A stretch of DNA of 64,000 nucleotides from contig SYLI01000006.1 in assembly GCA_005809105.1 (NCBI GenBank), positions 1 to 64,000 on the forward strand. The letters run 5' to 3'. Positions 2,939 through 60,200 of this stretch are shown in pieces. The position numbers were made by a program, and so were the translations under genes. The notes under the pieces were generated by a model. The model did not search any database. It worked only from the letters and a program-made list of their open reading frames with translations, and was not told the origin of the DNA. Origin of the DNA: Verrucomicrobiales bacterium. Lineage in GTDB: Bacteria > Verrucomicrobiota > Verrucomicrobiia > Limisphaerales > UBA1100. The first letter of the stretch is position 1. Every line of letters begins with the position of its first letter.

Positions 2939-4420
2939 CTACTCGTAGCGCAGGGCCTCCACCGGGTCCAGACGCGCGGCGCGCATGGCCGGATACACAC
3001 CGGCGAGCAATCCAAAAAGCGTGGTGAACACCAGCAGCCCCCCAAAGAGCCAGGAGGGCGGCAGGAAGAGGTCGGTGTTGCCCAGCACGTCGGGCCAGCG
3101 ATGAGCCGCCCACACATTGCCGAGGCTGCAGAGCAGCCAGCCGCCGCAGCCGCCGGCGATGCCGCCAAGGAACCCGATGGCCGCGGCCTCAACGGCAAAC
3201 ATCCACGCCACCAGCCGCCGCGTGGCGCCCAGTGCCTGCAGCACGCCGATTTCACGGCGCCGCTCAAACACCGCCATCAACAGCGTGTTCACGATGGAGA
3301 ACGCCGCCACGACGAAGGCGATGCCGCCAAAGATGAGCAGGAGCTTCTGCAGGGTGACAAAGAGGCTGTGCAACTCGCCCAGCAAGTCCTCCACCGACCG
3401 CGGCACCAGCCCGAGAGCGCGTACGGCCTGCTTGACGGCAGGCACATCCGCCGCCTCGTTGACGCGCAGCAGCGCGCCCAGCCCGAACGCCCGCTCGGTG
3501 TAGAGGTCGGGGTTGCGGAGCAGGATGCGGCCCATCTCGCGTGCGTATTCGTCGGGGACATAGACCAGATTTGAGAGCAGCCCTTTGCGGGCGACACCCA
3601 CGACCTTGGCCGGAAACGTCCGTGCGTCCGTGCCGTTGCCTTCGCGCTCAAAGGCCTGGAGCGTGTCGGCCATTTCCCCCAGCTGCATGAAGAGTGCGAG
3701 CATGGCCTCATCGGGGTCCGCCGGAGGTTTGCGCACCAAATCAAAGAGGCGGCGCAGTTCGGCGGGCGTGTCGCCGGCCAGCCGCGGCTGGCCGGTGATG
3801 TTGAGCAGCGGATGCTCGCTGATGTTAAGCAGCACCGTTTGGCCAAGGAGCGCGTCGGCCGACGCCAGGCCCAGCGACTGCAGATAGGCCTCGGACACGA
3901 TACATTCATGCGCCGAGTCGCTGCTAAACCCGCGGCCTTTTAGCAGCAGCTCCGGCCCGGCCTGGATCCACGGCACCACGATGGTGTCAAACTCGCGCGG
4001 ATCGCCGCGCACCTGCAGCGACCGGGCCAGGATGAACACCATGGGTTGCACGGCGCTCACTCCAGGGATGCGCCGCAGTCCCTCCACCTGCGCGGGCTCA
4101 AGGTACTTGATCTGGAAGGCGCCGATGAACTCGTCCTCCTTTTCCGAGGTGATCTCACGCGGCGCGCGGCCCAGCCCGGTGACCATCGACTGCGCCAGCC
4201 GCGCCGGATTGATGCCGCTCTTGGGCCACGCCTCCACCAGGCGGGGGTTGGCCAGGGCGCGCACCTGATGGTCGAGAAATTGCGAGAGGCCGTGGCCCAG
4301 CGAGACGATGAGCACCACCGCCAGCGCACCGATGACGACGCCTGCCATGGTGAGCGCCGCGCGCGTCTTCTTGCGCGTGAGATTGCGCGCCACCTCGGCG
4401 ATGAGATCGGGCGGCGTCAT
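2939..4420 (-). CDS. ABC transporter permease, MacB/FtsX type
   Basis: 493 aa; MTPPDLIAEVARNLTRKKTRAALTMAGVVIGALAVV and C-terminal FERRREIGVLQALGATRRLV; 4-bp overlap with the upstream ATPase. Confidence 0.9.
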   Translation of the reverse strand: MTPPDLIAEVARNLTRKKTRAALTMAGVVIGALAVVLIVSLGHGLSQFLDHQVRALANPRLVEAWPKSGINPARLAQSMVTGLGRAPREITSEKEDEFIGAFQIKYLEPAQVEGLRRIPGVSAVQPMVFILARSLQVRGDPREFDTIVVPWIQAGPELLLKGRGFSSDSAHECIVSEAYLQSLGLASADALLGQTVLLNISEHPLLNITGQPRLAGDTPAELRRLFDLVRKPPADPDEAMLALFMQLGEMADTLQAFEREGNGTDARTFPAKVVGVARKGLLSNLVYVPDEYAREMGRILLRNPDLYTERAFGLGALLRVNEAADVPAVKQAVRALGLVPRSVEDLLGELHSLFVTLQKLLLIFGGIAFVVAAFSIVNTLLMAVFERRREIGVLQALGATRRLVAWMFAVEAAAIGFLGGIAGGCGGWLLCSLGNVWAAHRWPDVLGNTDLFLPPSWLFGGLLVFTTLFGLLAGVYPAMRAARLDPVEALRYE

Positions 4421-41711: not shown

Positions 41712-41786
41712 TGGCGACCCCAACGGGAATCGAACCCGTGTTACCAACGTGAAAGGCTGGTGTCCTAACCGCTAGACGATGGGGTC
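41712..41786 (-). tRNA. tRNA-Glu (anticodon TTC)
   Basis: GACCCCATCGTCTAGCGGTTAGGACACCAGCCTTTCACGTTGGTAACACGGGTTCGATTCCCGTTGGGGTCGCCA; loop CTTTCAC. Confidence 0.96.
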
Positions 41787-42050: not shown

Positions 42051-42127
42051 GGGGGTGTAGCTCAATTGGTTAGATCGCTGCACTGTCACGGCAGAGGTTG
42101 CGGGTTCGAGCCCCGTCACTCCCGCCA
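42051..42127 (+). tRNA. tRNA-Asp (anticodon GTC)
   Basis: GGGGGTGTAGCTCAATTGGTTAGATCGCTGCACTGTCACGGCAGAGGTTGCGGGTTCGAGCCCCGTCACTCCCGCCA; loop CTGTCAC, encoded CCA. Confidence 0.94.
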
Positions 42128-42294: not shown

Positions 42295-45200
42295 ATGGCC
42301 CTAAGGTTTTCTGTCCAATATGGGACTTTGTCTGATGTTGTGCCTGTAAAGCGCAAGCAACTCTACCTGACGCTCCTCGCAGCCGCACTCGTGATTGGCG
42401 GGGCGGTGGGGCTTTACCTCCAAAAGAAGCAGCGGCGGCTGCCTTTGCTCTTCACCGATTTGGCCGCGGCGCAGGCCCCGGCCAGCTTTCCCGAACAAGG
42501 CATCGCCAAGCGGTGGCGCTGGGTGACGCTGGACAACGTGGGCTTGGGACAGCTTTCCATTCTTCCGCAGAAACCCAAACGCGTTCGCTTAAACCTGTTT
42601 CCTGATCTTGAGGTTTCGGCGGTGATCACCGCGAACAAGACGCACTGGAACACGGACCAGTCCGCGCTGGGCATCATCAACGACGATCCCGATTCGCTCT
42701 TCGTCATGTCGCGGCACAAAGACATCATGATGGGGATGGTGGTGCTGCCCGACGCCCGGCAGGTGCTCATCAGCCATGTGAAGGATGGCAAGTATGTGAT
42801 TGTCGAGGTGGACCCGCGCAAAGGTGGCGGCTGCGGCACTTGCGTGGATGACGCTGCACCCGCAGCGGCTGGTGATCATCCAAGCCATGGCACCAAACCC
42901 TCGGCGGCCGCTCCATCGGGCGACGCGGCGGCGTTTGCGCGGCGCATGGCAAAAGCCGATGGCGCCGTGGGCCATTCGTTGGCGAGAGAATGCGTGCATC
43001 CGCCCTTGCCGCCCGTTTCGCCCGTGATGCAGCAGGGTGATGGCAGTGTCCAGCCGCTGCCTCCCGAATCACCGCTGCCGCGGCCGCGCACGGCGTCGGT
43101 GCAGGTGCGGCCGATGCTGGCGGCAATTAATCTAAAGAATCTGCAGCCGCTCTTGGCGCAGGGGGCGTACACGTTGCAGGGGCAGGGCGGTTCCGCGCGC
43201 CAGACCATGGGGCCCACCACGCCTCATTCATTGACCTACCAGCGGCCCGGTTACACCGAGTACATTGACATCCTCTTCATCTACGACTTGCGCACCCTGG
43301 CGCAGGAGGGCAACTTCACGCAATTGCAGGGCAAGGTGACGCTGATGCTTGACGTGGTGAACAGCATCTATGCCGCCTGCGCCATCAGTCTGGAAGTGCG
43401 ACAGGCCGGCGCGTTGACGCCGGCCATTCGGCGCGCAATGGCCGGGAGTCCGGCGGATCTGACAAGCTCAGGCTACTCGGCGACGGGGCCGGCATGGCAG
43501 GAGGTTCAGGCGCCGGTGCGGCCCAACCGCACCAACACCGATCCTACGCAGTGGACCGTGTGGACTCCGGTGGGCACTCAGAAGCAGGCCAAGCCAGGCG
43601 TGTACCAGCCGCTCTTTGAGGACAGCAACAGCACGGTTGATTTGAACGAGGCACTCACCTGGCTCACCACCCGCAGCAACTCGCTCCTCTATGGCGACCA
43701 ACACTGGGGGGAGGCAATGTTTAGGTCTTCTACTGGCGTCAACACTCAGGAGCCCTACGTCAACCTCCCCGCCGGCACCTTGTGGCGCTTGGAGCCCAGA
43801 GCGGTGCCCGCCGCCCCCATTTACACCGACACCGTCCATCCCAACCTGCGCACGGGGCCCGTGGATCACGTGGACTCGCCCTGGGCCATCCAGTCAGACC
43901 CCGGCACGCCGCCCATCACCCACGACACCTACGTTTACCGTTACGATGTGGACGGCATCAACGACACCTACGGCACCCAATTCAACCCCCTTTACTCCGG
44001 GATGATTGGGCTGCGGATGGATGTCAATGGCTCCAACTACAACAACGTGGCCTTCACGGGCAACCCGAATGGTGGGGCTACCGCCCGCTATACGACGTTG
44101 CATGGCCAGACCGGGAATTTCGACCCCACCTACCAGATCAACACCACCCCCTACCGGATGGATGCGAGGGCCGACATCGTGTGCATGCTTTCCCCAGACG
44201 CATTTGCACTTGGTGGCGCTGGCGCGGTGGGGCTGGCACAGAAGTACTCGAACCTGAAACCGGTGGCAAACCCAGCCGGCGCGGTGGGCCGGGGGCCTTA
44301 TCCGCAGCCCAATCTGGTGCATGAGCAGCAGTACAGCCGCCACGATGGCGACATCTCGTTGGCTGCCGGAACGCCGTACTTGGGCACCTTCTCAACACTG
44401 CGCCCCACCCAGTTGGCCAACACCGCTGCATCGGGCCTGGTGGGCTACTGGCCGTTTTTGGGCAACGCCAACGACCTGAGCGGGCTTAACAACCACGGCG
44501 TTCTTGTGGGCAACGCGGCGCTGGGCAATGACCGGTTCGGCAACGCCAGCGCGGCGGTGAGCCTGGATGGCTCAGGCGACCATGTGAGCATCCCCGTCAC
44601 CGCTTCCTTGAACATCGCCAGCAAGTTCACCGTGTGCGCCTGGGTGCGCCCCACGCAGTTCACCCACCTCACCTCTCCGCATATCTTCGCCGCAGTGCAG
44701 GGCGCCACCCGCCGCATCACGCTGACGGGCGACGGCACGGCTGCCAACAATGGCACGGTGGTGTTTTATCCCCAAAGCGACAGCGCCAATCAGGTGAGCA
44801 CGCCGCAGCCCAACATCGCAGGCGTGGCTCAGCCGGCCCTCGCGCTCAACCAGTGGCATTTCATCGCGGCGGTTTATGATGGCTCGCAGTCCAAGATTTT
44901 CCGCAATGGCATGCTGGTGGCCGTGGACACGTCGGTGGCCGGAGGCAGCATCGGCACCATCTCCAATCTCTACATCGGCGACAGCACCGCAGGCACGCCG
45001 GCGCAGAACCAATGGCAGGGGCAGATTGATGACGTGCGGCTCTACAACCGCGCGATGGGCGACGACGAGGTGGCCGGCATCTACATTTCAGAACGACGCC
45101 CGCAGACGATGCCCTCGGCTGCCAACCTCGTGTTGCACATGCCCTTTAATGGCGGCAGCCTGGCGGATTTGAGCGGTCAGGGGAACGACGCCAACGCCAC

Positions 45201-48200
45201 CCCCACCGTGGCGCTGGGGCCCACCAAGGTCATGGATCGTCACGGCGCCGCCTTGAGCAGCTACCAGTTCGATGGCGCGGATGACGGAATTCGCACCGTG
45301 AGTGCCAATGGCCTGCCCGTGGCCGCCAGCGATTTCACCATGTCTCTTTGGGTGAGCCCGGGTGCCTTGCAAGGCCCTGACGGCGCGGCCGATCTCGTGG
45401 TGGTCAACCGCGGCCAGGCCAACCGCGTGTACCAGAACATCGGGGGCGGGCAATTCGCGCTCAAGGCGGGGGTTCTCCCTGCGGATGTTCGCAGTGGATC
45501 CTCGGTGGTGAGTGGCGACATCAACAAGGACGGCTTCCTTGATCTTATTGTCGGCAACGGGCAGACGGGCGTGAACGATGAGACCCGGCTCTACATCAGC
45601 AACGGCGATGGGACTTTCCAAGCCGCGCAAACCTTCGGCGGAGGCAGTCAGCGCACCATGGCGCTGGCGCTGGCGGACTTGGACGGCGACAGCTACCTCG
45701 ACTTGGTTCAGGGAAACTACGGTCAGCCCAACCGGTTTTACATCAACAACCAGTCGCGCACCGGCGGGTTCAAGGCGCCCATCAATGTGGATGCCATTTC
45801 CTACAACACCCGCGCGCTGGCATTGCAAGAGGTGAACGGTTCCTTCGCGTTTCTTCCGCCCGCATTTGGAGCTCCCGTGGAGAACATGGCGGCCGTGCCC
45901 GCCACGTTGCCCCGGGCATTGGAGAGCGCGCCGCCGTATTTCGTGGGGTTGGACGCCGCCGGCCCGGATGGAGACTTTGACCCGCAACTGCTGCTGGCGC
46001 AGGCTGCCGCGGGCGTGGCGACGCCACCCATTGCGCCGGTGCGCCCGCTCACCAATGCCGTGCCCGTGGCGCCGGTGTTCCCTCCCGAACTGGCGGCCAT
46101 CCCCGCCGTTCAGCAGTATCCCTTGATGCGGATCGGTTCCCGCGCGGTGATCCCCACCATCCACGGCCGGCAGGCCTCGTATCGCAACATTCATTTTCCC
46201 GGCAACCGCCTGCAGGCCGAGGCCACCGCGCGCCGCTTTCTGGACACCATGTCCGCCACGCTGGGGGTTCGTGCCGGGGAGAAAGATTTGGGCCTGCTCA
46301 AAGTGCAGCACGGTCTGGCGGGCAGCACGGTGTTTTTAGAGCCCAAGCTCCACGGGCGGCGCATCTACAACGCCAGCATCTCCGTCCACTTGGGCGCGCA
46401 GGGGCAGGTGGAAACCCTGCACCTCACGTACTACGCGGGGGTGAAGGTCGAGGATCAGCAACCGGTGATTGACGTGCGCGTGGCCGAGACCATCGCGGAG
46501 CGCCGGCTGGGCGCCAAGTCGGTGCGCCGGCGTTTTGCCGACCGAGCCGAGCAGGTGTGGTACATCAAACCCGACGGCAGCGCGGCACTGGCATGGAAAC
46601 TCCTGGTGGCGCCCTCAAACACGCTGGCGCTGTACGAGGTGCTGGTGGATTCCCGGCTGGCGGGCGTGCTGTCGGTTCGCGACACCAACCTGCATGCGCC
46701 CACCACGGGCAGCGGGCTGGCCTTCACGCCCAATCCCATCCAGACGCAGGGGAGCACCTTTGGTTTGTTCAATGCAAACCCGGGCAACGACGGCACCTCG
46801 GCGGCGCTGAACTTGCAGCGGCAAACCGTGACGTTGCTTGACCTCAATGGTTCTGGGTTTCTGGATGGCAAGTATTTGCACATGAGCACGGTGGCGCCCA
46901 TGAACGCCACCGTGGCGCAGGTTCATGCCTTCAGCCTCACCTCCACCTTCAACTACGATCGCAGCGATGGGCGCTTCGAGGAGGTTTGCATTTATCACAC
47001 CATTGATTCGGTCCAGCGCTATTTTCAGTCGCTGGGATTCAGCGGCTCCAACATTCCCGCCAACGGGCTGCGTGATCAGGTGATGCGCGCTTGCGCGCAT
47101 TCCTTCGAGGGCGTGGGCTCCGGCCTCAACGCCTTTTATAGCCCGGCGCTGAACGAGATCCATTTTGGTCAGGGTGACATGGGGCACGCTAGCGGCGACA
47201 CGGTGGACTTGGCGGAGGATGGCGATGTCATCGCGCACGAATACGGCCACGCGGTGCTCTTTGCCGTGAACCCCGGGCTGGCGATGGGGGGATGCATGTC
47301 CGGCATAAAAGGGGTCAATGAGGTGGACGCCATCCACGAGGGGTTTGGCGACTATCTGGCCTATGCGTTCTGGAGCGAGACGGGCAACGCCGGCTATCTG
47401 AGCGTGGCCGCGCAGCGCGCCCGCGGCGGCGAGTGGGCGATGGAGCAGTACCCCACGGCGATTCGCAGTGTGAACAATACCACCTATGGCTACGCCAATT
47501 GGAATGGCGAATGCCATCATGACGGCGAGATTTGGGCGAACGCGTTGTGGGACTTGCGTGTCAGCCTCGAGACCAAGCACGGCAAGCCGCTGGGCAGCCA
47601 GATGGCTGACAAGCTCGTGTTCGAGTCGCTGCGAAACTACCCGAACATCTGCACCTTCAAGATGGCGGCCATCGAGATTTACAAGGCTGACCAGGCTCTC
47701 AATGGCGGCATCAATGCCGGGCACATCATCAAGGCATTTAATGGCCGCGGTTTCACCACGACGCCCGACTTCCCCAGCCCCCCCGATTTCCCGGATTTGG
47801 TGGCGGGGAATTATCTCGGTGGCGGCAGCGTGGGCTACAGCAATCTCATCGGAGGCTTTGGGCCGCCGATTGCGGTTACTGCGTCCATGTCCACCACCGC
47901 CTTGGCGCTGGGCGACATCAACGGCGACGGCCGCGCCGATCTCATCGTGGGCAACGACGCCACCTTCAACTACCTCTACGTTAATAACGGCACGGGCGGT
48001 TTTCCCGTTGGCCTGCGCCAGCAAATGACCAGCGACAATCTCGCCACTCGCGCCCTTGCGGTGGGGGATGTGGATGGCGATGGCGATCTGGATGTGGTGG
48101 CCGGCAACTACGGCCAGCGCAACAAGCTCTACCGAAACAACGGCACGCCCACACCGTTTTTGGGACTCACGGGCGAGGACATCCACACCGATGCCGACAA

Positions 48201-51200
48201 CACCACGGGCATCGCGCTCAACGACGTGGATGGCGACGGAGATCTGGATGTGCTGGTTTCCAACGACGGCGCCATTCCCAAGCTCTACCTCAACAGCGGC
48301 GTGGGCGTGTTCAGCGCGGGCAGCCCCATCACGGGCGCGCTGGCGGAAAATTCCCAGGCCATACTGGTGGCCGACGTTGCCGGGCCGGGCCGACGCGTGC
48401 TGCTGGCCAACCAGTCCGCCGGCCAGTTCGAGGTGCATCTGGTGGCCGCGACGGGCCGCAATGCGGGTCTGGAGTTCTTCATGGGCGACCCCTCCGCCCC
48501 CAAGGTCACCACCTCCGCCATGAACTGGTCGCTCAACCAGTGGTACAACGTGGTGGTGCGGCGATCGGGCAACACGGTGACCGTGTGGCGCGACGGAATG
48601 TTGCTGGCACAGAACGACAATGTCGTGGCAGGAAACGCGGCCTCACCGGCCAACCAGAGGGTGAGCATGGGCCGGCGCACGCCCTTCCCCAGCTACTTGA
48701 TGCAGGGCACGATGGATGACATGCGAATCTACAACCGCGCGCTGACCGATGCGGAGATTGAGGAACTCTTCGTCTCCGAATGGGCTCAGCCCATGGCGAC
48801 TCCATTTGATTCGATCACCTCGCTGCGGGCGCATTATCCCATCCGCTCCACCGATTCGCCCTTTGCCGTCACCGAAATCGTGGGCACGGGCCCCGACGGC
48901 GTGCCCAACGCCGGTGCCTTGCGCGTCAGCGGCCGTTACGGTGCGGCCGATGTGCAGGGCGCCTACGAGCTGGCTGGCACGGTGGGCGGCTACATCAACC
49001 TGGGGGCGAACACCTCGTTTGGCACCGGCGCCTTCACCGTCTCGATTTGGGTCAGCAACGCCAGCGTGCCCAACGCCGTCAGCGCCGACATCATCGGCAA
49101 CCGCGTCTTCTCCTCGGGGAACGAGTGGTGGCTGGCGTTGCAGCCCAGTGGCCGCGTGGTCTTTCGCGGCGGCGGCACCACGCTGCAGTCCAATACCGGT
49201 GCCGTGTTGATGGATTCCTCCGCATGGACGCATCTGGTGGTCTCGCGCGAGGCCAACGGCAGCGCCACGCTGTACGTGGACAAGACCCCCGTGGCCACGA
49301 CCACATCCATGTCCGCGAACCTGAACACCCTCAACGAACTCTGGATGGGCAGGGCCGGCGGCGGGGGGACCGACTACTACAAGGGGCGCGTGGATGAACT
49401 CCGGCTCTTTCAGGGCCGCGCCTTGCAGGGGTGGGAAGTGTCCGCGCTCTATGATCTGGAACGCCCCGCGTCGGTCGGCACGGCGAGCATCACGGTGAAC
49501 TTCACCCCCGACGCGGTGGATGCGGGGGACAGCGTGCGCCTGCAGCTCTACTCCAACAGCGCGGCCACCGAGGCGGCGTTTTACACCACCGATCTCAACG
49601 CGACGGGCAAGACTTTCACCTACACCTTCAACAGTGCGGCGGCGGCCAATGCGTGGCAGGACTTGCAGGGGCAGTTCCGGTTCACGCCGCAGGGGGGACG
49701 GGTGACCATTGACAACGTGGTGATCACCGTCAACGGGGCCTCCTTCACCTACAGCGGCACGGACGTTCCCGTGCGGATTTCCTCCGGGGACAAGCTGGCC
49801 AAGAACATCCAGATGAACCGCGACAGCACCTTTGCGATGGCGATGCTTTTGAATGCCGGCGGTGCCTACACGCTGGCCCACGAGCTGGGTCATCTCTTGG
49901 GATGCCACCATGGCATTGGGGACACATGGCTGCGTCCGGATAGTCCCAGCATCACCTTCAACCCCTACGGTTCCGAGACCATCGCCGGCGGGGTTACCGC
50001 GGGGGTGGGCAATTACGTGCGCGACGAATTCCTGGCGATGGGCAATCACTTCACGACCTGGGGCACCCCCACCGGCCAGCCGGGCTCCGGCACGTGGGGG
50101 AAATACTGCACCCTCATGGCGTACAGCTTTCCCGGCAACGCGTCCAGCAACCCGCTCTGGACCAGAATCCCCCGCTTCTCAAGCCCGTATGTCTATTGGA
50201 AAGGCAAGGCGACGGGGGATAGCCACGGCTTTAATCTTCCGCCTCCCTTTGGGAACTACAACAAACCGCTCTACTTCGACAACGTGAGGGTGCATCAGGT
50301 GGTTGGTCCCATTGTGGGTTTCTACCGCGACGACAATGGATCAGACCGGCTGCCTTCCGAATTCCAAACGCCCTTGCGCGGGCCGCAGGGCGTGCCCGAT
50401 ATGGACACCAACTTTGCCTCGGGCAATCCCCAGCAAGTGGCCCAGGCAGGAGGCGGCGCCGGTGGCAGCAGTGGTGCGGGTGCCCCCAAGCGCAACACGG
50501 GATTGGGCGCGGGTGTCTCCGGCGGCAATGGGGGCAATGGGGGCAATGGGGGCAATGGGGGCAATAGCGGCAGCACGCCGGGCACCACCAATCCTGCTCC
50601 CGCCACGGGGGGCAATCCCTCCGGCACACCGCCTGCCACCGGTTCAAAGGGTGGCACCACGGCCAACCCTACATCTCCACCGAATCCGGGCGGATCGAAC
50701 CCACGGCCCACGGTGACGCCCGGTGTTGTCGTGTCCGGCCCCGGTGTGCCCAACGACCGCAAGGCGGGAAGCCTGAACATTGCCTTGCGGCGCCAGGCCG
50801 ACACGAGCTGGTCGGGCATTGCCGATGGACACAACCGGGGTGCGACGGCGGACGCGGGCGACAACGCCCTGGCTCAGACCGACGACCGCCGCCCGGCGTT
50901 TCACGGCCGTTCGGTCTGGTGGCACGCCGTGGTGCCGGAGGATGGAACCTATCAGGTGCAGGGCACCACGGCGGGAAGCACCTTTGACACCACGCTCACC
51001 CTGCTGCTGCCCGAGGAGGGCGGCGCGCTCTCCAACGACAACGACCCCGGCCAGTCCGGCCCGTCCAGCCGCGTGCAGACCGGCGAGAGGGTGTTGAAGG
51101 CCGGACAACGGATTTACTTCGCCGTGGACGGCGTGGATGGGGCGCAGGGGCAGGTGCGGCTTAACGTGCGCCTCTCGCCGCTCAAGCGTGGCGGCAACTG

Positions 51201-51201
51201 A
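42295..51201 (+). CDS. Giant (2968 aa) membrane-anchored or secreted multidomain protein: split metzincin + LamG + FG-GAP + nested fungalysin-like gluzincin + PPC-like C-terminus
   Basis: N-terminal TM; EYIDILFIYD...VTLMLDVVNSIYAACAISLEVRQ; LamG and FG-GAP motifs; VIAHEYGHAVLF...AIHEGFGDYLA...GEIWANALWDLR; TLAHELGHLLGCHHG...YCTLMAY; (GGN)n linker; C-terminal SVWWHAVVPEDGTYQVQGTTAGSTFDTTLTLLLP. Start codon uncertain (SD-like GGAAGGAG is too close to 42295). Confidence 0.9.
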   Translation: MALRFSVQYGTLSDVVPVKRKQLYLTLLAAALVIGGAVGLYLQKKQRRLPLLFTDLAAAQAPASFPEQGIAKRWRWVTLDNVGLGQLSILPQKPKRVRLNLFPDLEVSAVITANKTHWNTDQSALGIINDDPDSLFVMSRHKDIMMGMVVLPDARQVLISHVKDGKYVIVEVDPRKGGGCGTCVDDAAPAAAGDHPSHGTKPSAAAPSGDAAAFARRMAKADGAVGHSLARECVHPPLPPVSPVMQQGDGSVQPLPPESPLPRPRTASVQVRPMLAAINLKNLQPLLAQGAYTLQGQGGSARQTMGPTTPHSLTYQRPGYTEYIDILFIYDLRTLAQEGNFTQLQGKVTLMLDVVNSIYAACAISLEVRQAGALTPAIRRAMAGSPADLTSSGYSATGPAWQEVQAPVRPNRTNTDPTQWTVWTPVGTQKQAKPGVYQPLFEDSNSTVDLNEALTWLTTRSNSLLYGDQHWGEAMFRSSTGVNTQEPYVNLPAGTLWRLEPRAVPAAPIYTDTVHPNLRTGPVDHVDSPWAIQSDPGTPPITHDTYVYRYDVDGINDTYGTQFNPLYSGMIGLRMDVNGSNYNNVAFTGNPNGGATARYTTLHGQTGNFDPTYQINTTPYRMDARADIVCMLSPDAFALGGAGAVGLAQKYSNLKPVANPAGAVGRGPYPQPNLVHEQQYSRHDGDISLAAGTPYLGTFSTLRPTQLANTAASGLVGYWPFLGNANDLSGLNNHGVLVGNAALGNDRFGNASAAVSLDGSGDHVSIPVTASLNIASKFTVCAWVRPTQFTHLTSPHIFAAVQGATRRITLTGDGTAANNGTVVFYPQSDSANQVSTPQPNIAGVAQPALALNQWHFIAAVYDGSQSKIFRNGMLVAVDTSVAGGSIGTISNLYIGDSTAGTPAQNQWQGQIDDVRLYNRAMGDDEVAGIYISERRPQTMPSAANLVLHMPFNGGSLADLSGQGNDANATPTVALGPTKVMDRHGAALSSYQFDGADDGIRTVSANGLPVAASDFTMSLWVSPGALQGPDGAADLVVVNRGQANRVYQNIGGGQFALKAGVLPADVRSGSSVVSGDINKDGFLDLIVGNGQTGVNDETRLYISNGDGTFQAAQTFGGGSQRTMALALADLDGDSYLDLVQGNYGQPNRFYINNQSRTGGFKAPINVDAISYNTRALALQEVNGSFAFLPPAFGAPVENMAAVPATLPRALESAPPYFVGLDAAGPDGDFDPQLLLAQAAAGVATPPIAPVRPLTNAVPVAPVFPPELAAIPAVQQYPLMRIGSRAVIPTIHGRQASYRNIHFPGNRLQAEATARRFLDTMSATLGVRAGEKDLGLLKVQHGLAGSTVFLEPKLHGRRIYNASISVHLGAQGQVETLHLTYYAGVKVEDQQPVIDVRVAETIAERRLGAKSVRRRFADRAEQVWYIKPDGSAALAWKLLVAPSNTLALYEVLVDSRLAGVLSVRDTNLHAPTTGSGLAFTPNPIQTQGSTFGLFNANPGNDGTSAALNLQRQTVTLLDLNGSGFLDGKYLHMSTVAPMNATVAQVHAFSLTSTFNYDRSDGRFEEVCIYHTIDSVQRYFQSLGFSGSNIPANGLRDQVMRACAHSFEGVGSGLNAFYSPALNEIHFGQGDMGHASGDTVDLAEDGDVIAHEYGHAVLFAVNPGLAMGGCMSGIKGVNEVDAIHEGFGDYLAYAFWSETGNAGYLSVAAQRARGGEWAMEQYPTAIRSVNNTTYGYANWNGECHHDGEIWANALWDLRVSLETKHGKPLGSQMADKLVFESLRNYPNICTFKMAAIEIYKADQALNGGINAGHIIKAFNGRGFTTTPDFPSPPDFPDLVAGNYLGGGSVGYSNLIGGFGPPIAVTASMSTTALALGDINGDGRADLIVGNDATFNYLYVNNGTGGFPVGLRQQMTSDNLATRALAVGDVDGDGDLDVVAGNYGQRNKLYRNNGTPTPFLGLTGEDIHTDADNTTGIALNDVDGDGDLDVLVSNDGAIPKLYLNSGVGVFSAGSPITGALAENSQAILVADVAGPGRRVLLANQSAGQFEVHLVAATGRNAGLEFFMGDPSAPKVTTSAMNWSLNQWYNVVVRRSGNTVTVWRDGMLLAQNDNVVAGNAASPANQRVSMGRRTPFPSYLMQGTMDDMRIYNRALTDAEIEELFVSEWAQPMATPFDSITSLRAHYPIRSTDSPFAVTEIVGTGPDGVPNAGALRVSGRYGAADVQGAYELAGTVGGYINLGANTSFGTGAFTVSIWVSNASVPNAVSADIIGNRVFSSGNEWWLALQPSGRVVFRGGGTTLQSNTGAVLMDSSAWTHLVVSREANGSATLYVDKTPVATTTSMSANLNTLNELWMGRAGGGGTDYYKGRVDELRLFQGRALQGWEVSALYDLERPASVGTASITVNFTPDAVDAGDSVRLQLYSNSAATEAAFYTTDLNATGKTFTYTFNSAAAANAWQDLQGQFRFTPQGGRVTIDNVVITVNGASFTYSGTDVPVRISSGDKLAKNIQMNRDSTFAMAMLLNAGGAYTLAHELGHLLGCHHGIGDTWLRPDSPSITFNPYGSETIAGGVTAGVGNYVRDEFLAMGNHFTTWGTPTGQPGSGTWGKYCTLMAYSFPGNASSNPLWTRIPRFSSPYVYWKGKATGDSHGFNLPPPFGNYNKPLYFDNVRVHQVVGPIVGFYRDDNGSDRLPSEFQTPLRGPQGVPDMDTNFASGNPQQVAQAGGGAGGSSGAGAPKRNTGLGAGVSGGNGGNGGNGGNGGNSGSTPGTTNPAPATGGNPSGTPPATGSKGGTTANPTSPPNPGGSNPRPTVTPGVVVSGPGVPNDRKAGSLNIALRRQADTSWSGIADGHNRGATADAGDNALAQTDDRRPAFHGRSVWWHAVVPEDGTYQVQGTTAGSTFDTTLTLLLPEEGGALSNDNDPGQSGPSSRVQTGERVLKAGQRIYFAVDGVDGAQGQVRLNVRLSPLKRGGN
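50521..50567. repeat. 9-bp tandem repeat (ggcaatggg)n coding a GGN linker
   Basis: ggcggcaatgggggcaatgggggcaatgggggcaatgggggcaat. Confidence 0.9.
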
Positions 51202-51216
51202 CCTCGAGACCTCGAC

Positions 51217-54200
51217 ATGAATCGCAGGGCCAAATGGATTCGCGCGGGCTGGGTGACGCTCGTCATCGCCTGCGGGATTGCCGGCCTTTGGTGGCGGCAG
51301 GCCAGTCGGTTTGCGCCGCCGCTCTTCGTGGACTTGCCCGCGCATCTCAAGCCCGAGTCCTTCCCCCAAAGCGTCATCGCCAAGCGGCACCGGTGGGTTT
51401 ATCTGGACACGGCGGCGCTCCAGCGCCTCACCAAGATCGGGGGGCGCCTCAAGCTCAATCTTTTCCCCGACATGGAGGAGGTGGCGGTGGTGGGCGCGCA
51501 CCGTTCGCACCCGCACGGCGACCAGTCGGTTCTGGGCCACCTTGAGAGCGGGCCTTACGAATCGCTCTTCGTGTTCTCGCGCAGTGAACAGGTGATGATG
51601 GGATCGGTGGGCATGGCCGATGGCAGGCAGGTGCTCTTAAGCCACGTCCGTGGCGGCGCCTATGTGATTCTGGAGGTGGACACGCGCAAGGTGGGGGGCT
51701 GTGGCACCTGCGAGCCTGAGCGCACCGCGAGCAAAGAAGCCGCGCCGCCACGCCCGTCATCCAAGGCGTCGGCACCGCCGTCCGGGTCGGCCGAGGGTTC
51801 GGCCTTTGCGCGGCAGCTTTCGCGGCGGTCGGGTGCAGGGCCTTGGAGTGGGATTTGCGAGGCGTGCAATGGCGAGCGGACGGCGCGGCCGGTGGCCGGC
51901 ACCCCGGACATCGCCCCGCTGCATTCTCATACGGCCCTTCCTGAGCCCACGGCGCGGCGGCAGGTTCTGCCCAAGCCAACGCTGGCGCAGCGCCAACTGC
52001 CCCTGCTGGCGGCGATGGGGTTGCCCACACACGTGCTGGCCGCCACCGGCCCTTACGGCATTCATAATGCGGGGACAGGCAAGAAGGGGGGCGCCGGTTC
52101 CAGCCCGGTCTCTGCCAGCAGCCGCTACCTTATGTCGGTCGGCACCAGCGAGTTTCTCGATGTGTTGTTCCTTTACACCGACGCGCTGAACACTCAGTTG
52201 GGGGGAGGGGCGACAGGGCTGCTCAATCTACAGGCCTCGGTCACGCTGATGGTTGATCAGGCCAATCAAATCTTTCTGGAAAGCGGTGTGCCCTTCCAAA
52301 TCCGGCAGGCCAGTCTGTGGAAGGCGACTCACCGGGCGATGACGGCGATGGACGGCGGGATTAGCGTCACGGCTCCCAATCTTCTGGGCGCGGGCTATCC
52401 CACCGATGCGCCGGCATGGACGGAGACGCAGGCACCCGTGCGCCCCGACTATTCCAACGGCGACAACAAGCTCTGGACGGTCTGGAATCCGTGGAAAGGC
52501 ACGGTGGGCGTGACGACGTGGAATCAAAAACAGGCGATGGAAGGCGTGTACCAGCCCACGATGGTGAACGTCAAGAAAACGGAGGTGGCGGACTACCTCA
52601 AGTGGATCACCAACCGCAGCAACAGCCTGCTCTACGGCGACCAGTACTGGAAATCAGGAAAACTCTTCACCGGCGCCGTGATTGAATACGTTGAGGCCAA
52701 CAACACCAAGCAGTATTTCCAGCAGCACCGCACCGCCAGCAACCTCGCCACCCGCGCCATCGTGCCCTTGCCCACCAACGGCGCGCCGATGAAGTTTGTT
52801 GGCAATTCCGACTATGCCACCCTCAGCACCATCGTGCAGCACGATCCAGGCTCGGGCGTGGCCGGGTTCATCACGGCCAACACCAGGTTGTATTTTAGAA
52901 ATGGCAATGCGACGGGCCGGTTTTCGTTGCACTCCAAGTCGGCGCACGCCTCCAACGGCAGTTTTCCGGTGCAAATCGGCGCGGACGATCCGCCCTTGGA
53001 TCCGCTCCCGGTGGGGTACTCGCTGGAGCTGGTTGAGCAGGACAACTACAGGGTTAATCCCTTCATCAATCTTCCCGCGGGCTTCACATGGCGGCTGGAA
53101 CCTGATAAGGCGGGAAAATCGCGCATGTACAAGGAGAGTGTCAATCGCGCCGTGGCGGTGGGGCCGGTGGACGATCCGCTCTCCAGCACCGCGATCAAGG
53201 CCTTTGGCCCTGGCGATGCCACGCCGCCCACGAGCATCAAGGACGATAATGCCACCAACCACACGCCGGTGCAGCGCTACGAGCTGGACACCAGCGACCT
53301 CGTCCCCGGCATCGCCAACGGGACCTATTATGGCAATGTGTACAACCCGCTCTATTCGGGTGTGCTGGGGCTGCGGATGGACCTCAACGGGTCCGACTAC
53401 GCCTCGATTGATTTCAATGGAACGCCGCTGGCCTCCGCGCTGCTGCCGGTGCGCTATCCCAACCTGCACCGGTTTCAGGAGACGCCCTTTGTGCCCACCG
53501 CCTTGGCCGCCGACCCCCGGGCCGATCTGGTCATCCTGCTCACCGAAAACCTGGCGGGCAGCGCAGGCATCGCCACCAAGTACATGAACATCACCCCGGC
53601 CGATCCGGCCCGAACCATCGGGCGGGGGATGTCGCCCGAGCCCAACAAGGTTCAGGAAAAGACCGCCGACTATCACGAGGGCGACCTGTTGGGCGGCAGC
53701 AGCCGCATGTTGGAGCGATCCTTCACGTCGCTGCCGGTGACCGGCACCATCAACACTTCCACGACCTCGCTGGGGAGCAGCGGGTTGGTGGCGTACTATC
53801 CCTTTGACGGCAATCTGACCGACTCCAGCGGCAATGCCCACCACGGCGTGCTCTCCTTGGGAACGGCCGCCTACACCACCGACCGCCTTGGCGTGGCGGC
53901 AAAGGCGCTCAGTCTGGATGGCACCCAGCGCGTGGAGGTGACGGCGGGCGCGTCCGTTTTCAATTTCAACAGCACCACCAGCTGGGCGGTGAGCGCGTGG
54001 ATCAAGCCCAACGATATCGCGGCCGAAGGCGGCATCTTGAGCCAGGCCGATTCGGCGACGGGCGTGGTGAACTACCAGATGGGCCTGCGCAATTCCAGGT
54101 TGAGCAGCGAGAGTCCGCCGCTCAGTCCGGTCACGGGCGGCAACTCGGGCGCGGTGCTGGGTGGCACGGGCGAATGGAAGCACCTCATGTATGTGTATGA

Positions 54201-57200
54201 CCGCACCGCGCGCGGCGGCACCGGCGGGTCCTCCTCGTGGACGGGCTTCGGGAAAGTCCAGCGTTACATCAACGGCATGCTCTTTGATGAGATTGGCATG
54301 AATGCGCCCTCGGGCGTGGGCGCAGGCGACCGGCTGTTGCTGGGCGACAACGCGGCGGGGACGGCGCCCTTTGCCGGTGCGCTGGATGAGGTGCGCGTGT
54401 ACAGCCGCTCCTTCACGGGCACGGAGGTTCGCCAGCTTTACGGCAGCGAGAAGAACGCCACCGCGTTTGATGCCCTCACGGGCCTCGCCTTCCACTACCC
54501 CTTTAATGGCGCCTCCACCGCCGACTTGAGCGGCAACACCAACACGGGCGTGGTTTACAACGGTGCGTCGCACCCGCGGCCCGACCGCTACGGCAACGCC
54601 AATGGTACGCTCTCACTCGATGGCGTGAATGATTACATGCGCTCCACCAAGACCACCAACTTCCCGCGCGGGCCCGGCGCCTTCACCTATTCGGTGTGGC
54701 TCAAGCCCGGCAGCCTGCTTTCCCCGGACAGCCGGCTGGACTTGCTGACGGGCCACGGCGCGGGGGTGCCCTCGCAGGTGTTTGTCAACGAAGGCAACGG
54801 CTCGTTGCGCCCCTTCGTGGGCGATCACCAGGTGTCGGGCACCTCGGGCAACGCCACCACCAGCGTGGCGGTGGGCGATCTCAACAACGACGGCTACAAC
54901 GATTTCGTGCTGGGCAACTGGCGCCAGCCCAGCGTGGCCTTCCTCAACAACGGCAACGGCGACTTTGGCGCGGGCATCATGGTCTCCGCCGACGCCAATG
55001 ACACCCGCGACATCAAGCTGGGCGACATCAACCGCGACGGCAACCTCGACCTCGTGGTGGCGCGCGACAACGGCCAGTTCAACCTCATCTACATGGGCCG
55101 CGGTGATGGCACCTTCCAGCCGGCCGTTGAAATCGAGCCTTCCTCGCAGCTGCTCTTCGACGACAAGATTGGGCTGGTGGTCCACTACCACTTTAGCAAT
55201 GGCACGCTGCTGGACGCCAGCACGTCGGCCAACCACGCCAACGCCACCGGATTGCCCGCGCTGGCACCGGGCGTGGGGCCCTTGCCGGTTCCCAACAGCG
55301 CCTACCGGTTTAATCCCGTCACGGGCGCGGGCGCGATGCAGCGGCAATACATCACGAGCAAAACGGCCAATGGGTTTCCGTCAGGCACGGGCAATTTCAC
55401 CGTTCTGGGCTGGGTGAATCCCAAGTCCTTTTTCGGCATGGACGGGCTGCCCGATGTCATCACCGGCGTGGGCGGCGGCCCCTTGCGCATCCACCCGGGC
55501 TACGGCAACGGCTCGTTCGCCTCGCCCCGCACTTTTGGCGGCGTGAGCGACACGACGGCGCTTTTGGTGCGCGATGTGGACGGCGACGGCGATCCGGACG
55601 TGGTGCAGGGTGCCTACAACCAGCTTAACCGCGTGCATCTGCTGCACGGCAACGGCACCTTTTTGGCCAGGGACATTGGCACGGCGCCGGGCGAAGCCAA
55701 TCGCACCCTGTCGCTGGCGATGGCCGATTTGAATTTGTTGCCGGCGGTTGGCCTGCCCGATCTGGTGGTGGGCAACGCCCATCCCGACCGTGACGTGGTG
55801 TACAAGAACATGGGCAACGGCTCGTTTGTGAAGGTCGAGGAAATCATCGGGATGCAGCCCATGAACCCCATCCCGACAGGCGCCATCTGCCATTTCAAGA
55901 TGGACGGCTCGCTGGCGGCCGACGTCGTGCGCGACTTTGCCGTCAATGAGTGCAACGGAACCGTGACGGGCTGGGGTGTGAGCGTCAATGCCACCACCAG
56001 CCGGCACGGGCGTCTCAATAACGCCGTGGTGGTGGACGGCTACAACGGCGGTCGCATCTCCTGGCCGGCCAGCAACGCCACCACGTGGTTTGGCGACATC
56101 CCTGCGCTGAGCATGTCGCTGTGGGTGAAACCCATGGGAACCCAAGCCACCGCGCGAACCGTGCTCAGCTGGACCTCGGTGGCGTACGCCACGGTGGATG
56201 GCTTTGCGTTGCTGTTGCCGGAGAACGCGTATGGCGGCCGGTTTCAATATTTCTCGAGGTCGGTCAACTGCTTAGGCGGCGCGTGGCCCGCCGGCTGGGC
56301 CAACACCGGCTGGCAGCACATCGTGGTCATCCGCAAGCTGGTCACGGCGTTTAACAACGAGTCGCTCGAGATTTATCTCAACGGTAGCCTCAATAATGTG
56401 CAGGTCTCCACCGGGCCGCCGGGGGTCAACGTAAATCCTTCAGGGGCGTTCGCGCTGGGCGCGTGGGCCAGCGGCGGCGGGCAGCCCTCCCACTTTGGCG
56501 TGGACGACATGCGCGGCTACCGGCGCGTGCTGAGCGCGACGGAGATTCTGGAGTTGTACAACGAAAGCGCGCCGGTCTTTCAGGAGTCCAAGGGCCACAG
56601 CCGGTCTGTGGCGCTGGCTGATCTCAACAACGACGGCAAGATGGAGCTCATCGTGGGCTCGGATGGAAACGGCACGATGGTGTACCAGAAGAACCTGGAT
56701 GGCGCCATCACCGATCCCCAATTGTTGGCCCGGCGCTTTGGCGTGGTGCGCTATCTGAGCAGCGGCGCGGCCTTTAATCGCACGAGCTCCGTGTGGGTGG
56801 GCAACGCCACCGGAGGAACCATGCCCGACATCATCGAGGGCAACGACAACGCCTCCACCATGCTCTACCGCACGCTGGGGTATCCTTTCATCAACTTCAC
56901 ACCTCCCTACAACGACTGGCGATATCAAAAACCGGTGATGAGCGGCGCCACGCCCATCCCGCCGCCGGGCGAGACTTGGGTTGCACGGGATTCCAACCGC
57001 AATTGGTCGGCCGTGGCGTCGTCATCCAATGGCTCAAAGTTGGTCGCCACGGTGATGGGCGGCCAGATCTACACGTCCACTGACCTGGGCGCCACGTGGG
57101 GAGTGGGCGGGAGTGCCGTCGGCAACTGGAGCGCGGTCGCTTCTTCTGCTGACGGGGTGAAACTGGTCGCAGCCCGATCCGGCGCAGGCGTCGGCCAGAT

Positions 57201-60200
57201 TTACACCTCACCGGATGCAGGCGCCACGTGGGCTTTGCAGGGTTTAAGCCCGACGCGCGATTGGACGGCGCTGGCCTCGTCCGCGGACGGCACCAAGCTT
57301 GTGGGGGTGGGCAATGCTTCCGAGCTTTTCACCTCCACCGATTCGGGAGCGAACTGGACCCCGCGGAGTTCCGCGCGGGTGTGGGCCGACGTGGCAGGCA
57401 CTCCCGACGGGGTTCGTCTGGTGGCCTGCGAGGCGGGAGCGGCAGGGCGAATCTACGTGTCCATCGATTCGGGGGTGACTTGGGCGCTGGGCGGCAATGC
57501 CACCTATCCGGTGGGCAACTGGGCGGGAGTGGCCTGTTCTGACGACGGCTTCCGGATGGTGGCGGTGATGAATGGCGGCCAGGTCTACACCTCGGTTGAT
57601 GTGGGCACCACATGGACGCCGCAGGTGGCCAGCCCCACCGCGGCATGGAAGGCCATCGGCGCCAACCTGACGGCGCAGTGGCTGGTGGGGGTGACGACCG
57701 GGGGCAACATTTACACCTCTACCGACTCGGGCGCGACTTGGAGGGCGAGTGACAGCGCCCGCGCATGGACCTGCGTTGCCTCGTCGAGCAATGGCATGGA
57801 CCTGGTGGCGGGCGTGAATGGCGGCCAGATCTACACCTCCAACGCGCTGGTGTCGGGCACCCGCGCCATCCGGCTCATGCAAGTGATGGGCCCCATCGCC
57901 ACGCAGCACGATGTGGTGAGCGGCAGGCATGGCAATGCCAGCCAGATCTACGCGGGGAATGGCACGGGCTTCTTCGCATCGGGGCTGGTGTACAGCGGGC
58001 TGGATGACAACACCACGGCGATCGAGATCGCCGACATGAACCGCGATGGCATCGCCGACATCCTGGCCGCCAACGAGGATGGCCCGGACAAGGTGTATCT
58101 GGGCGATGGAGCTGGCAACTTTCAGACAATGCTGCTGCCCGGTTCGGCCGGCAACTCGACGTGCATCGGCGCGGGGGACTTCACCGGGCCGGGGCGCCAG
58201 ACCATTTTTGCCAACCGCAGGCTGGGGGCGTTTGAACTGCACCTCAATGCGGGCGATTCCACCCGGCCCACCGAGGCGGCGATGGAGTTTTACACGGCCG
58301 GCGACGACGTCACGCCCCTGCTCACCAGCGCCAACATGACGTGGGATCCCAACCAATGGTACTTCGTGGCCGTCCGGCGCGAGGGCGATGTCCTGACACT
58401 CTTCCGCGACGGCGTGGCCATGGCGAACGCCACCGATGCATCGGGCCTGGGCAACACGGCCACGCTGGCCGAACGAATCCTCGATCTGGGCTACCGGCCT
58501 GCTTTGCAGGGCGGCCACTTCCCCTTGAACGGCAATGTGGACGATTTTCGCATCTACACGAAGCCCCTGTCCGACTCGGAGATTGCCCAGCTCTACAACA
58601 TGAACGCGCCCACGCTGGCGGCGTCAACGGAGTTGGTGGGGCATTATTCCTTCGACTACGTGGCCACCGACAATCCCGTGGGCACGGTGCTGCGCGATGA
58701 AAGCGGGCGCAACAACAACGGCACGCTGGGAGGCGCCACGGCGCCGCTGCCCACCTTCGACAAACTGGGGAGAGCGGCCTCGGCGCTGCTCTTTGACGGA
58801 GTGGATGACGTGGTGACCATCGCACCGGCCACCGCCGCCAACTTTGGCGACTTTAACATCAACGCCACACAGAACCTCACGGTGGCGTTGTGGGCGCTGC
58901 CCAACACGCTTTCCAAGCCCAACAACCCCATCCTCACGCTGCGGGATGGCTCCGGCAACGCCTACTATCAGATGGAGTTTAACAGCAGCATCTTTGCCAC
59001 GGCGATGCCGCCCGTGGGCCCGGCTGGCAATGGCACCTTTGCGGTGAACCCCGGCTGGCGCTTCTTGGTCTTGGTGCTTGATCGCACCGCTTCGGAAATC
59101 CGCCGCTACGTGGACACGCGGCTCTGCGATGTCATCCCGATCAGCCTGCCGGCGGGGACGCTGACGGGCACGCAGCTGGTGCTGGGGGCCAACGACGCCA
59201 GCGACGCGTTCTTTGAGGGCGTGCTCGATGATCTGCGCATCTACAACCGGGCGCTCTCACCGGGCGAGGTGGCGCAGCTTTACCAGAAGATGCCCTCGGA
59301 CATTCCCACCGACTCGCGGGGCGTGGCCATGGCGGATCTCAACAACGACGGCGATCTGGATCTGTTCTTTGCCAACTACAACCAAGAGAGCATCTGGTTT
59401 GAGAACAACGGCACGGGAGGATTCCCGTTGGCGCGGCGGATTTACACCGGCGACATTTTCCGGTCCACCTCCATCGCCGTGGGCTCCATCAACGGCGACG
59501 CGACTCCGGATCTGGTGCTGGGCAACGAAGGCCAGCCCTCGGTGTGGTACCGCTCCTTTGGTTCCGGCGACGCGTTCAATCCGAAGGTCAATGTCTCCAC
59601 CGACGCCAACCAAACCCAGGCCGTTCTGCTGGTGAACGTGGTGGGAACCGCGGCGCTGGACCTGGTCTCCATCAACCGCAACGAACCGAGCAAGATTTAC
59701 CAGAACCTTGGGGGGGCATGGTCGTTGCCGTCCTTCTTGGATCCCGCGCAGGCTTCGTATGATTCAACCTCGGTGGCCGCCGGCGATGTGGATGGCGACG
59801 GGCTTGTGGATCTGGTGGTGGGCAACAACGGTGTGGCCAATCGGGTTTACAAGAACAACTTAGGCACCTTTGCCAACGGCATCGCCATCACCAGCGCCAC
59901 CACCGGCAACTGCACTGCCGTGGCGCTGGCCGACTTCGCCGGCGACCGGCGCGTGCTGCTTTCCAACCAGAAGGACGCGGGCGGCCGCGCCGACGCCTTC
60001 TCCATCCATCTGCTGCCGCTGGACAAGAACAACACGGCGCACGTGCAGTACTACGCAGGCGGGCTGCTCATGACCGAGTCCACCACCGACTGGAACTTTG
60101 ATCCCGCAAGCTGGCATCATCTCGTGGTGACCCGGCGCGATCCGTTTGATGCGACCAACCCCAACGGCGTGCGCATGTACTTGAACGGTTCATCCATCGG

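Follow-up and report, generated by a model that had tools for sequence, protein, structure and literature searches.

Background

The gelatinases MMP-2 and MMP-9 carry three fibronectin type II modules, about 180 residues, within the metzincin catalytic domain and just ahead of its active-site helix. Here we discuss two adjacent genes, A and B, from an uncultured member of the Verrucomicrobiales (GenBank assembly GCA_005809105.1), in which a metzincin is likewise interrupted between the strand region and the zinc helix, near the cleft, and likewise by binding modules. The window analysed is the stretch of 64,000 nucleotides at positions 1 to 64,000 of the forward strand of contig SYLI01000006.1, and all positions given are those of the window. 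The gelatinases have one type of module at this place, whereas the inserts of about 1,850 residues in gene A and 2,600 in gene B are of several types that appear to be nested, with a second peptidase in gene A. Fibronectin type II modules were absent from our Pfam scan, and the likeness to the gelatinase insert would be an analogy of position only.

In integrins the alpha-I (vWA) domain is inserted between blades 2 and 3 of an FG-GAP propeller, which has seven blades (PMC3192720). The genes discussed here also have a functional domain within an FG-GAP propeller with Ca-binding loops, but in gene A it is a whole M36 peptidase in blade 4, and the propeller itself appears to lie in a LamG domain within the metzincin. 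A survey of 48,551 domain insertions found six-level nesting in the cyanobacterial RNA polymerase beta' (Si3), reports that inserted domains are usually smaller than their host (median 115 against 199 residues) and typically have close termini, and has neither the word peptidase nor protease in its text (PMC13114784). The recursive nesting of the polymerase is similar, and the depth in gene B is comparable. However, compared with the insertions of the survey, the insert here is 7-10 times its host, a fold of about 250 residues, and is made of extracellular enzymes and binding modules. We found no description in the open-access literature of a peptidase nested via a propeller and a LamG domain inside another peptidase, nor of LamG and FG-GAP nesting in Verrucomicrobia. 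An insertion ahead of the metzincin helix, like one into an FG-GAP propeller, is known by itself, and it is the extreme combination that appears to be new.

A metzincin in two parts

The two genes and the two parts of the metzincin in each are as follows.

42295-51201, + strand: gene A, split metzincin with nested inserts, 2,968 residues (intact open reading frame, even G+C content at third codon positions, GC3)
43255-44259, + strand: metzincin N-half of A, residues 321-655, with beta1 (IDILFIYD), helix, beta2, a family-specific cap and the ADIVCML strand (hhalign)
49816-50409, + strand: metzincin C-half of A, with HELGHLLGCHH (49879-49911), the Met-turn YCTLMAY (50104) and the end FYRDDNG (hhalign probability 99.2 to unbroken metzincins and 100 to contiguous homologues)
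51217-62760, + strand: gene B, tandem paralogue of A with its metzincin split alike, 3,847 residues (open reading frame and comparison with A)
52141-53595, + strand: metzincin N-half of B, residues 309-793 (43% identity to the N-half of A)
61387-61956, + strand: metzincin C-half of B, with HEIGHLLSASH at 61462 and FCTIMAY at 61654 (44% identity to the C-half of A)

In gene A the motif IDILFIYD is at residue 324 (nucleotide 43264) and ADIVCML at residue 626 (44170), and HELGHLLGCHH, which matches the extended zinc motif HExxHxxGxxH, is at residue 2529 (49879), with YCTLMAY at residue 2604 (50104). The zinc helix and Met-turn (residues 2507-2680) are about 1,850 residues beyond the metzincin start. 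The distance from ADxV to HExxH is 1,903 residues in A, 2,647 in B and 1,916 in L022, an orthologue from another genus (g3), and the position of the split is the same in all three. A Met-turn follows the zinc motif in both A and B, and aligns with that of unbroken metzincins.

The M12B or reprolysin-like secreted peptidases of the same genomes (about 440-610 residues) have the same order of beta1-helix-beta2, ADxV, zinc helix and Met-turn and a similar propeptide, but they have no inserts. Such unbroken peptidases are present in 20 of 20 genomes of the same family, and in 34 sequences from these genomes ADxV is 39-54 residues ahead of HExxH (one value of 75 stems from a short sequence, for which alignment gives 47), with beta1 123-138 residues ahead of it in those sequences where the motif search located beta1. 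There are also homologues of the giant proteins with the two halves contiguous at this point: in the genera g5 and g2, and in two genomes, G094 and G146, of two other families, the joint from ADxV to HExxH is unbroken (69-86 residues), and these orthologues from other genera are interrupted at a different metzincin loop.

Profile alignments with hhalign put the N-core of the giant proteins on columns 60-112 (beta1-helix-beta2) of the unbroken-metzincin profile (probability 96.5), and the part of the contiguous homologues that starts at ADxV and runs to the end on columns 148-294 (probability 99.6). On the profile of the contiguous homologues the end of the N-half of A occupies columns 26-87 (probability 98.6) and the C-half columns 97-297, which narrows the split point to some ten columns that follow the ADxV/GLAQK segment and precede the NRDS segment leading into the zinc helix. 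By these alignments the N- and C-halves occupy complementary, collinear parts of one metzincin. Sequence searches of the PDB gave no matches for the N-core, and only short metzincin matches for the C-core.

Much of this had been anticipated in a sequence-only reading of gene A, which recognised the start of a reprolysin-like metzincin in the N-terminal region, put the zinc motif and Met-turn about 1,800 residues later, took a few dozen residues as the ordinary spacing, and saw LamG domains, FG-GAP repeats and another protease between the halves; the distances above agree with it, and the region between the halves scores in Pfam as LamG (205.7 bits), FG-GAP (123.4 bits) and Peptidase_M36 (62.9 bits against a cut-off of 23.3). 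Its view that the frame is intact and not an assembly break is likewise upheld by the open reading frame of 2,968 codons, the even GC3 and the split shared with B and L022. It had also proposed a search for homologues with contiguous halves, and these are the ones just described. The extreme domain-in-domain insertion that it suggested is supported as far as the split metzincin is concerned. However, a single insertion is too simple a picture, as there are several nested levels, and both the repeat of the architecture in the next reading frame (gene B) and the splitting and nesting of the inserted modules had been overlooked.

The nested insert of gene A

The modules between the two metzincin halves of gene A were delimited with Pfam, with a LamG hidden Markov model (HMM) of 218 positions built from eight intact copies, and with a propeller blade HMM seeded from A and B.

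44434-45096, + strand: LamG1, intact, residues 714-934 (LamG HMM 1-217 of 218)
45127-45378, + strand: N-half of LamG2, residues 945-1028 (LamG HMM 2-114)
45379-45840, + strand: FG-GAP blades 1-3 and first strand of blade 4, residues 1029-1182 (blade HMM)
46105-47772, + strand: M36 (fungalysin) peptidase with FTP-like propeptide, within blade 4, residues 1271-1826, HEYGH at 47236 (PF02128, 62.9 bits)
47791-48384, + strand: FG-GAP blades 4-7 and the strand closing blade 1, residues 1833-2030 (blade HMM)
48385-48780, + strand: C-half of LamG2, residues 2031-2162 (LamG HMM 108-216; PF13385 positions 32-150)
48820-49464, + strand: LamG3, intact, residues 2176-2390 (LamG HMM 1-217)
49477-49779, + strand: independent beta-rich module, residues 2395-2495 (homologue in G038)

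The two halves of LamG2 match the model at 2-114 (match residues 945-1058) and 108-216 (match residues 2059-2162). The other pairs are equally complementary, at 1-125 and 122-212 and at 1-81 and 107-216 in B, and at 2-113 and 87-214 in L022, and all three pairs of A and B and the one in L022 nest in the order of parentheses. Blade counts give 3+4 around M36 in A, 3+4 in L022, and 3+4 for the outer and 3+2+2 for the inner propeller of B, so that four of four complete propellers have seven blades, a number reached only by summing across the inserts; L022, which contributed no seed to the blade model, also totals seven. The first strand is missing from blade 1, and one that matches it (ILVADVAGPG, IGAGDFTGPG, VALADFAG) is found just ahead of the LamG C-half, which is where end-to-end closure of the propeller needs one. 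The Ca loops are of DxDxDG type (DINGDG, DVDGDG), and the propeller fold is read from sequence.

In the case of the M36 domain the Pfam score is accompanied by HEYGH and the downstream Glu in NEVDAIHEGFGD, and catalytic residues are kept in both the metzincin and the M36 peptidase of A. The FTP propeptide motif scores 13.4 bits in A, under the cut-off of 21, and 36-41 bits in the g5 copies, over it. The order in gene A is metzincin N-half, LamG1, LamG2 N-half, blades 1-3, M36, blades 4-7, LamG2 C-half, LamG3, beta-rich module and metzincin C-half, and the nesting, as the sequence indicates it, metzincin, LamG, propeller and M36 peptidase from the outside inwards.

The nested insert of gene B

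53782-54453, + strand: LamG1, intact (LamG HMM 1-217)
54481-54726, + strand: N-half of LamG2, partner at 59947-60357 (LamG HMM 1-125)
54727-55137, + strand: outer propeller blades 1-3 (blade HMM, 3+4=7)
55171-55437, + strand: N-half of LamG3, between outer blades 3 and 4, partner at 58201-58605 (LamG HMM 1-81)
55441-58200, + strand: inner propeller, blades 3+2+2=7, containing intact LamG4 (55885-56571) and a BNR/Asp-box repeat region (56971-57846) (Pfam, LamG and blade HMMs)
58201-58605, + strand: C-half of LamG3 (LamG HMM 107-216)
58630-59295, + strand: LamG5, intact (LamG HMM 1-217)
59317-59946, + strand: outer propeller blades 4-7 and closing strand (blade HMM)
59947-60357, + strand: C-half of LamG2 (LamG HMM 122-212)
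60403-61044, + strand: LamG6, intact (LamG HMM 1-217)

The architecture of gene B repeats that of A, and by BLASTP the two are collinear on both flanks, with the M36 domain of A replaced in B by the block of LamG3, propeller and BNR region, plus LamG5. The place of exchange is identical, between propeller blades 3 and 4. The match residues of the split LamG domains in B are 1089-1215 with 2954-3047, and 1319-1407 with 2355-2463. The blade 3/4 slot of B is filled by a LamG domain that is split by a second seven-bladed propeller, which itself holds a LamG domain and the BNR region, and then by another LamG domain. Read in this way the nesting of B goes two levels beyond that of A: metzincin, LamG, propeller, LamG, propeller, and then LamG or BNR.

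Structure models and alternative explanations

Structure models were made with AlphaFold for L062 (953 residues), the shortest natural homologue, which has both halves with 680 residues in between. The first model, from rows of the giant family only, has its confidence mainly in beta1-helix-beta2, with the ADxV strand and zinc helix next best; in the second, with 14 unbroken relatives added, much of both halves reaches predicted local confidence (pLDDT) values around 90. In Foldseek the N-core of L062 matches ADAM-8 and snake-venom adamalysins (probability 0.97, root-mean-square deviation 1.2 Å over 48 columns), and there is a longer match to PDB 6o38, of 205 columns but loose (9 Å); no Foldseek match is at E 0.001 or better. 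The N-core of the modelled homologue is thus placed with the adamalysins, and not in an unrelated fold as the sequence-only reading had considered. As an observation in its own right, L062 and L063 (from G094 and G146) have an unassigned insert of about 650 residues at the earlier metzincin loop, with an NHGYVAGQ-type segment that is partly present in g5 also (HGLATGS) and is possibly another split domain.

We consider it very likely that A and B are cell-surface metalloproteases of this uncultured verrucomicrobial lineage, in which an adamalysin-like (M12B-type) metzincin is broken, in frame, after the ADxV strand and before the active-site helix, with the nested inserts serving as a substrate-binding tower. 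Several points weigh against this. Both L062 models are low overall (mean pLDDT 41 and 42) and confident in the metzincin pieces only. The C-halves of A (19.1 bits) and B (20.5 bits) are under the Pfam cut-off of 27 bits for Reprolysin_5 (PF13688), and we therefore file them only as metzincin-like and not as PF13688. In B (HEIGHLLSASH, 61462-61494) and in its relatives L003 and L021 the zinc motif has Ser in place of Gly (HExxHxxSxxH). That the two halves pack together, and that the metzincin of A and B is active as a peptidase, we infer, and function, secretion and activation are deduced from the domains only.

There is little to recommend the alternative that the C-terminal segment alone is a whole small metzincin, its N-subdomain being in the 110 or so residues ahead of HELGH, with the N-terminal part a decayed or unrelated relic. 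With 139 residues, the stretch from LamG3 to HELGH comes close in size to a metzincin N-subdomain, and a weak hhalign extension runs from the zinc helix into a VTIDNVVITV strand, as though this were ADLVSL. However, the stretch is a separate module, with a homologue that is a stand-alone secreted protein in G038 (L014, 1345-1857, which has a PEP-CTERM-like end), and the module is missing in g5, G002, G094 and G146, where HExxH directly follows ADxV. The N-half, ADIV included, is conserved, with 43% identity shared by A and B. The complete C-terminal metzincin that the sequence-only reading had allowed for is thus not what is found: as the preceding 100 or so residues are an independent beta-rich module, the C-terminal part is without a whole metzincin. 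We give as little weight to the view that the metzincin has a single insertion in which one truncated or diverged LamG or FG-GAP domain simply follows another, with no Russian-doll order. Such repeats do diverge fast and partial profile matches are common, but the LamG half-pairs are complementary and parenthesis-ordered in A, B and L022, the propellers come to seven blades only across the inserts, with the seedless L022 included, and the closing strands are positioned as end-to-end closure demands.

An assembly chimera or collapsed repeats, in which the LamG and FG-GAP repeats led to fusion of two or more genes, has practically no probability. It is true that the source is a metagenome-assembled genome in 106 contigs, that the modules are repetitive and that contigs break within this gene in G001, G002, G003 and G007, but the frame is open over 2,968 and 3,847 codons with even GC3, and the architecture was assembled independently in genus g3 and, with the different loop, in four complete g5 genes. 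We thus reject an assembly artefact on the grounds of open frames, even GC3 and independent recurrence in other genera. We regard it as unlikely, though much less so than these, that the chain is cut after secretion, trimmed by the M36 peptidase or the metzincin, so that the fully nested form is a precursor only. There are propeptide-like regions, with an FTP motif ahead of M36 and CGTC ahead of the metzincin, and a metzincin nicked inside the insert could stay associated.

Relatives and moving modules

The giant family was found in four of the five genera of family f1, and in single genomes of families f8 and f34 of the same order, and the 385 genomes of the class that were searched gave no other members. 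The g5 proteins have the interruption at an earlier point of the metzincin, past LLYGDQYW, where M36 is inserted. An NHL-type repeat region divides this M36 in its turn (model 2-460 and 479-581), whereas the M36 of A and L022 is intact. A LamG domain is present inside the NHL-type region in G017 and G007 and not in G011, G013 and G005, and there are thus filled and empty sites within one genus.

The M36 domain of A is closest to that of L022 (G003; 369 bits, 44%), and then to those of g5 (217-228 bits), though the g5 M36 sits at another loop. The remaining M36 matches in the 320 genomes of the order are at 52 bits or less, and within this genome family the Pfam M36 model matches giants only. 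The simplest reading of these scores would be a single acquisition of M36, with the module now occupying two different loops of the metzincin, but there may instead have been independent capture from a related donor.

In genus g3 (G003:C144; L022 and L061) an A-like gene is followed on the same strand by the N-half of a B-like gene, and the A-B tandem pair thus looks conserved between genera. The g5 orthologues (L023-L026, L064, L065) have an N-terminus, MASLRKRLKSDNWVCCYATADGRRTQRSTGTTDKDEAMAICRRWENEEYA, that resembles an integrase arm-binding start with a weak DUF6538 match, fused ahead of the membrane segment.

The locus and other features

Genes A and B are both on a single contig of 125 kb in a genome of 3.0 Mb, with Pedosphaera sp. 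Baikal-deep-G217 (Verrucomicrobiota) as its nearest named relative. Gene B starts 15 bases past the end of A, and GC and GC3 are uniform along both reading frames. They have the only copies of the metzincin C-half in the genome; a scan of genome contigs with the C-half alignment gave only one locus, and was superseded by the family- and order-wide genome searches. Immediately upstream of gene A are tRNA-Glu (41712-41786, - strand) and tRNA-Asp (42051-42127, + strand). Outside the metzincin and its insert, gene A has the following.

42358-42420, + strand: hydrophobic N-terminal segment LTLLAAALVIGGAVGLYLQ, probable signal anchor (sequence reading)
42421-42843, + strand: propeptide-like region with CGTC at its end (42832-42843), a possible cysteine switch (by reading, similar in A, B and other-genus orthologues)
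50812-51189, + strand: C-terminal domain, weakly PPC-like, behind a Gly/Pro-rich linker (PF04151 12.6 bits, under cut-off; by reading alike in family members)

The counterpart of the hydrophobic segment in B is VTLVIACGIAGLW, at residue 13. Gene B has 70 N-x-S/T sequons, where local shuffles predict 35 (z 6.5), and control patterns occur as often as expected; z is 3.4-3.7 for the g5 orthologues (L024, L026 and L027 listed), 0.9 for A and 0 for the unbroken metzincins. N-glycosylation of the bacterial type is possible in this organism, because the genome has a homologue of STT3-type oligosaccharyltransferases (G000:C36:67762-68199).

Proposed function and significance

We suggest that gene A most likely encodes a surface-anchored dual metalloprotease, with its inserts acting as a substrate-binding tower. 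Each inserted domain would fold first, its close termini bringing the chain back to the point of departure, so that the host is free to close around the inserted part. Such close termini are a feature of closed propellers and LamG sandwiches, and are typical of inserted domains in the survey cited above (PMC13114784). The propeller would close around M36, then LamG around the propeller, and finally the metzincin around everything. LamG domains and propellers with Ca loops beside the catalytic cleft would form the tower, and would hold the M36 active site near that of the metzincin. With an N-terminal signal anchor and the CGTC propeptide the enzyme may be held at the surface and be latent until processed, and a likely role would be the digestion of protein- or glycoprotein-rich particles. 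The nesting may have grown by repeated in-frame insertion and module exchange.

Domain insertions are common, but as a rule a host carries one small insert that is shorter than itself (PMC13114784), and in this case the nesting can be read from blade counts. We think the case evenly balanced for a broader view, in which this family of genes forms a natural system for recursive insertion in frame, where whole enzymes and binding domains have been inserted, relocated (M36, at two metzincin loops) and exchanged in a fixed slot for cargo (between FG-GAP blades 3 and 4), to three to five levels and still foldable. On this view the family would hold the first peptidase catalytic domain to be described as lying, via intermediate domains, within that of another peptidase. 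The questions that it opens are how nested proteins fold during synthesis and how insertion sites are chosen, and also whether, as in the gelatinases, substrates are guided by a binding tower next to the metzincin cleft. These questions are directly testable, as related species offer sites with and without an insert, a module that has moved and a slot with exchanged cargo.

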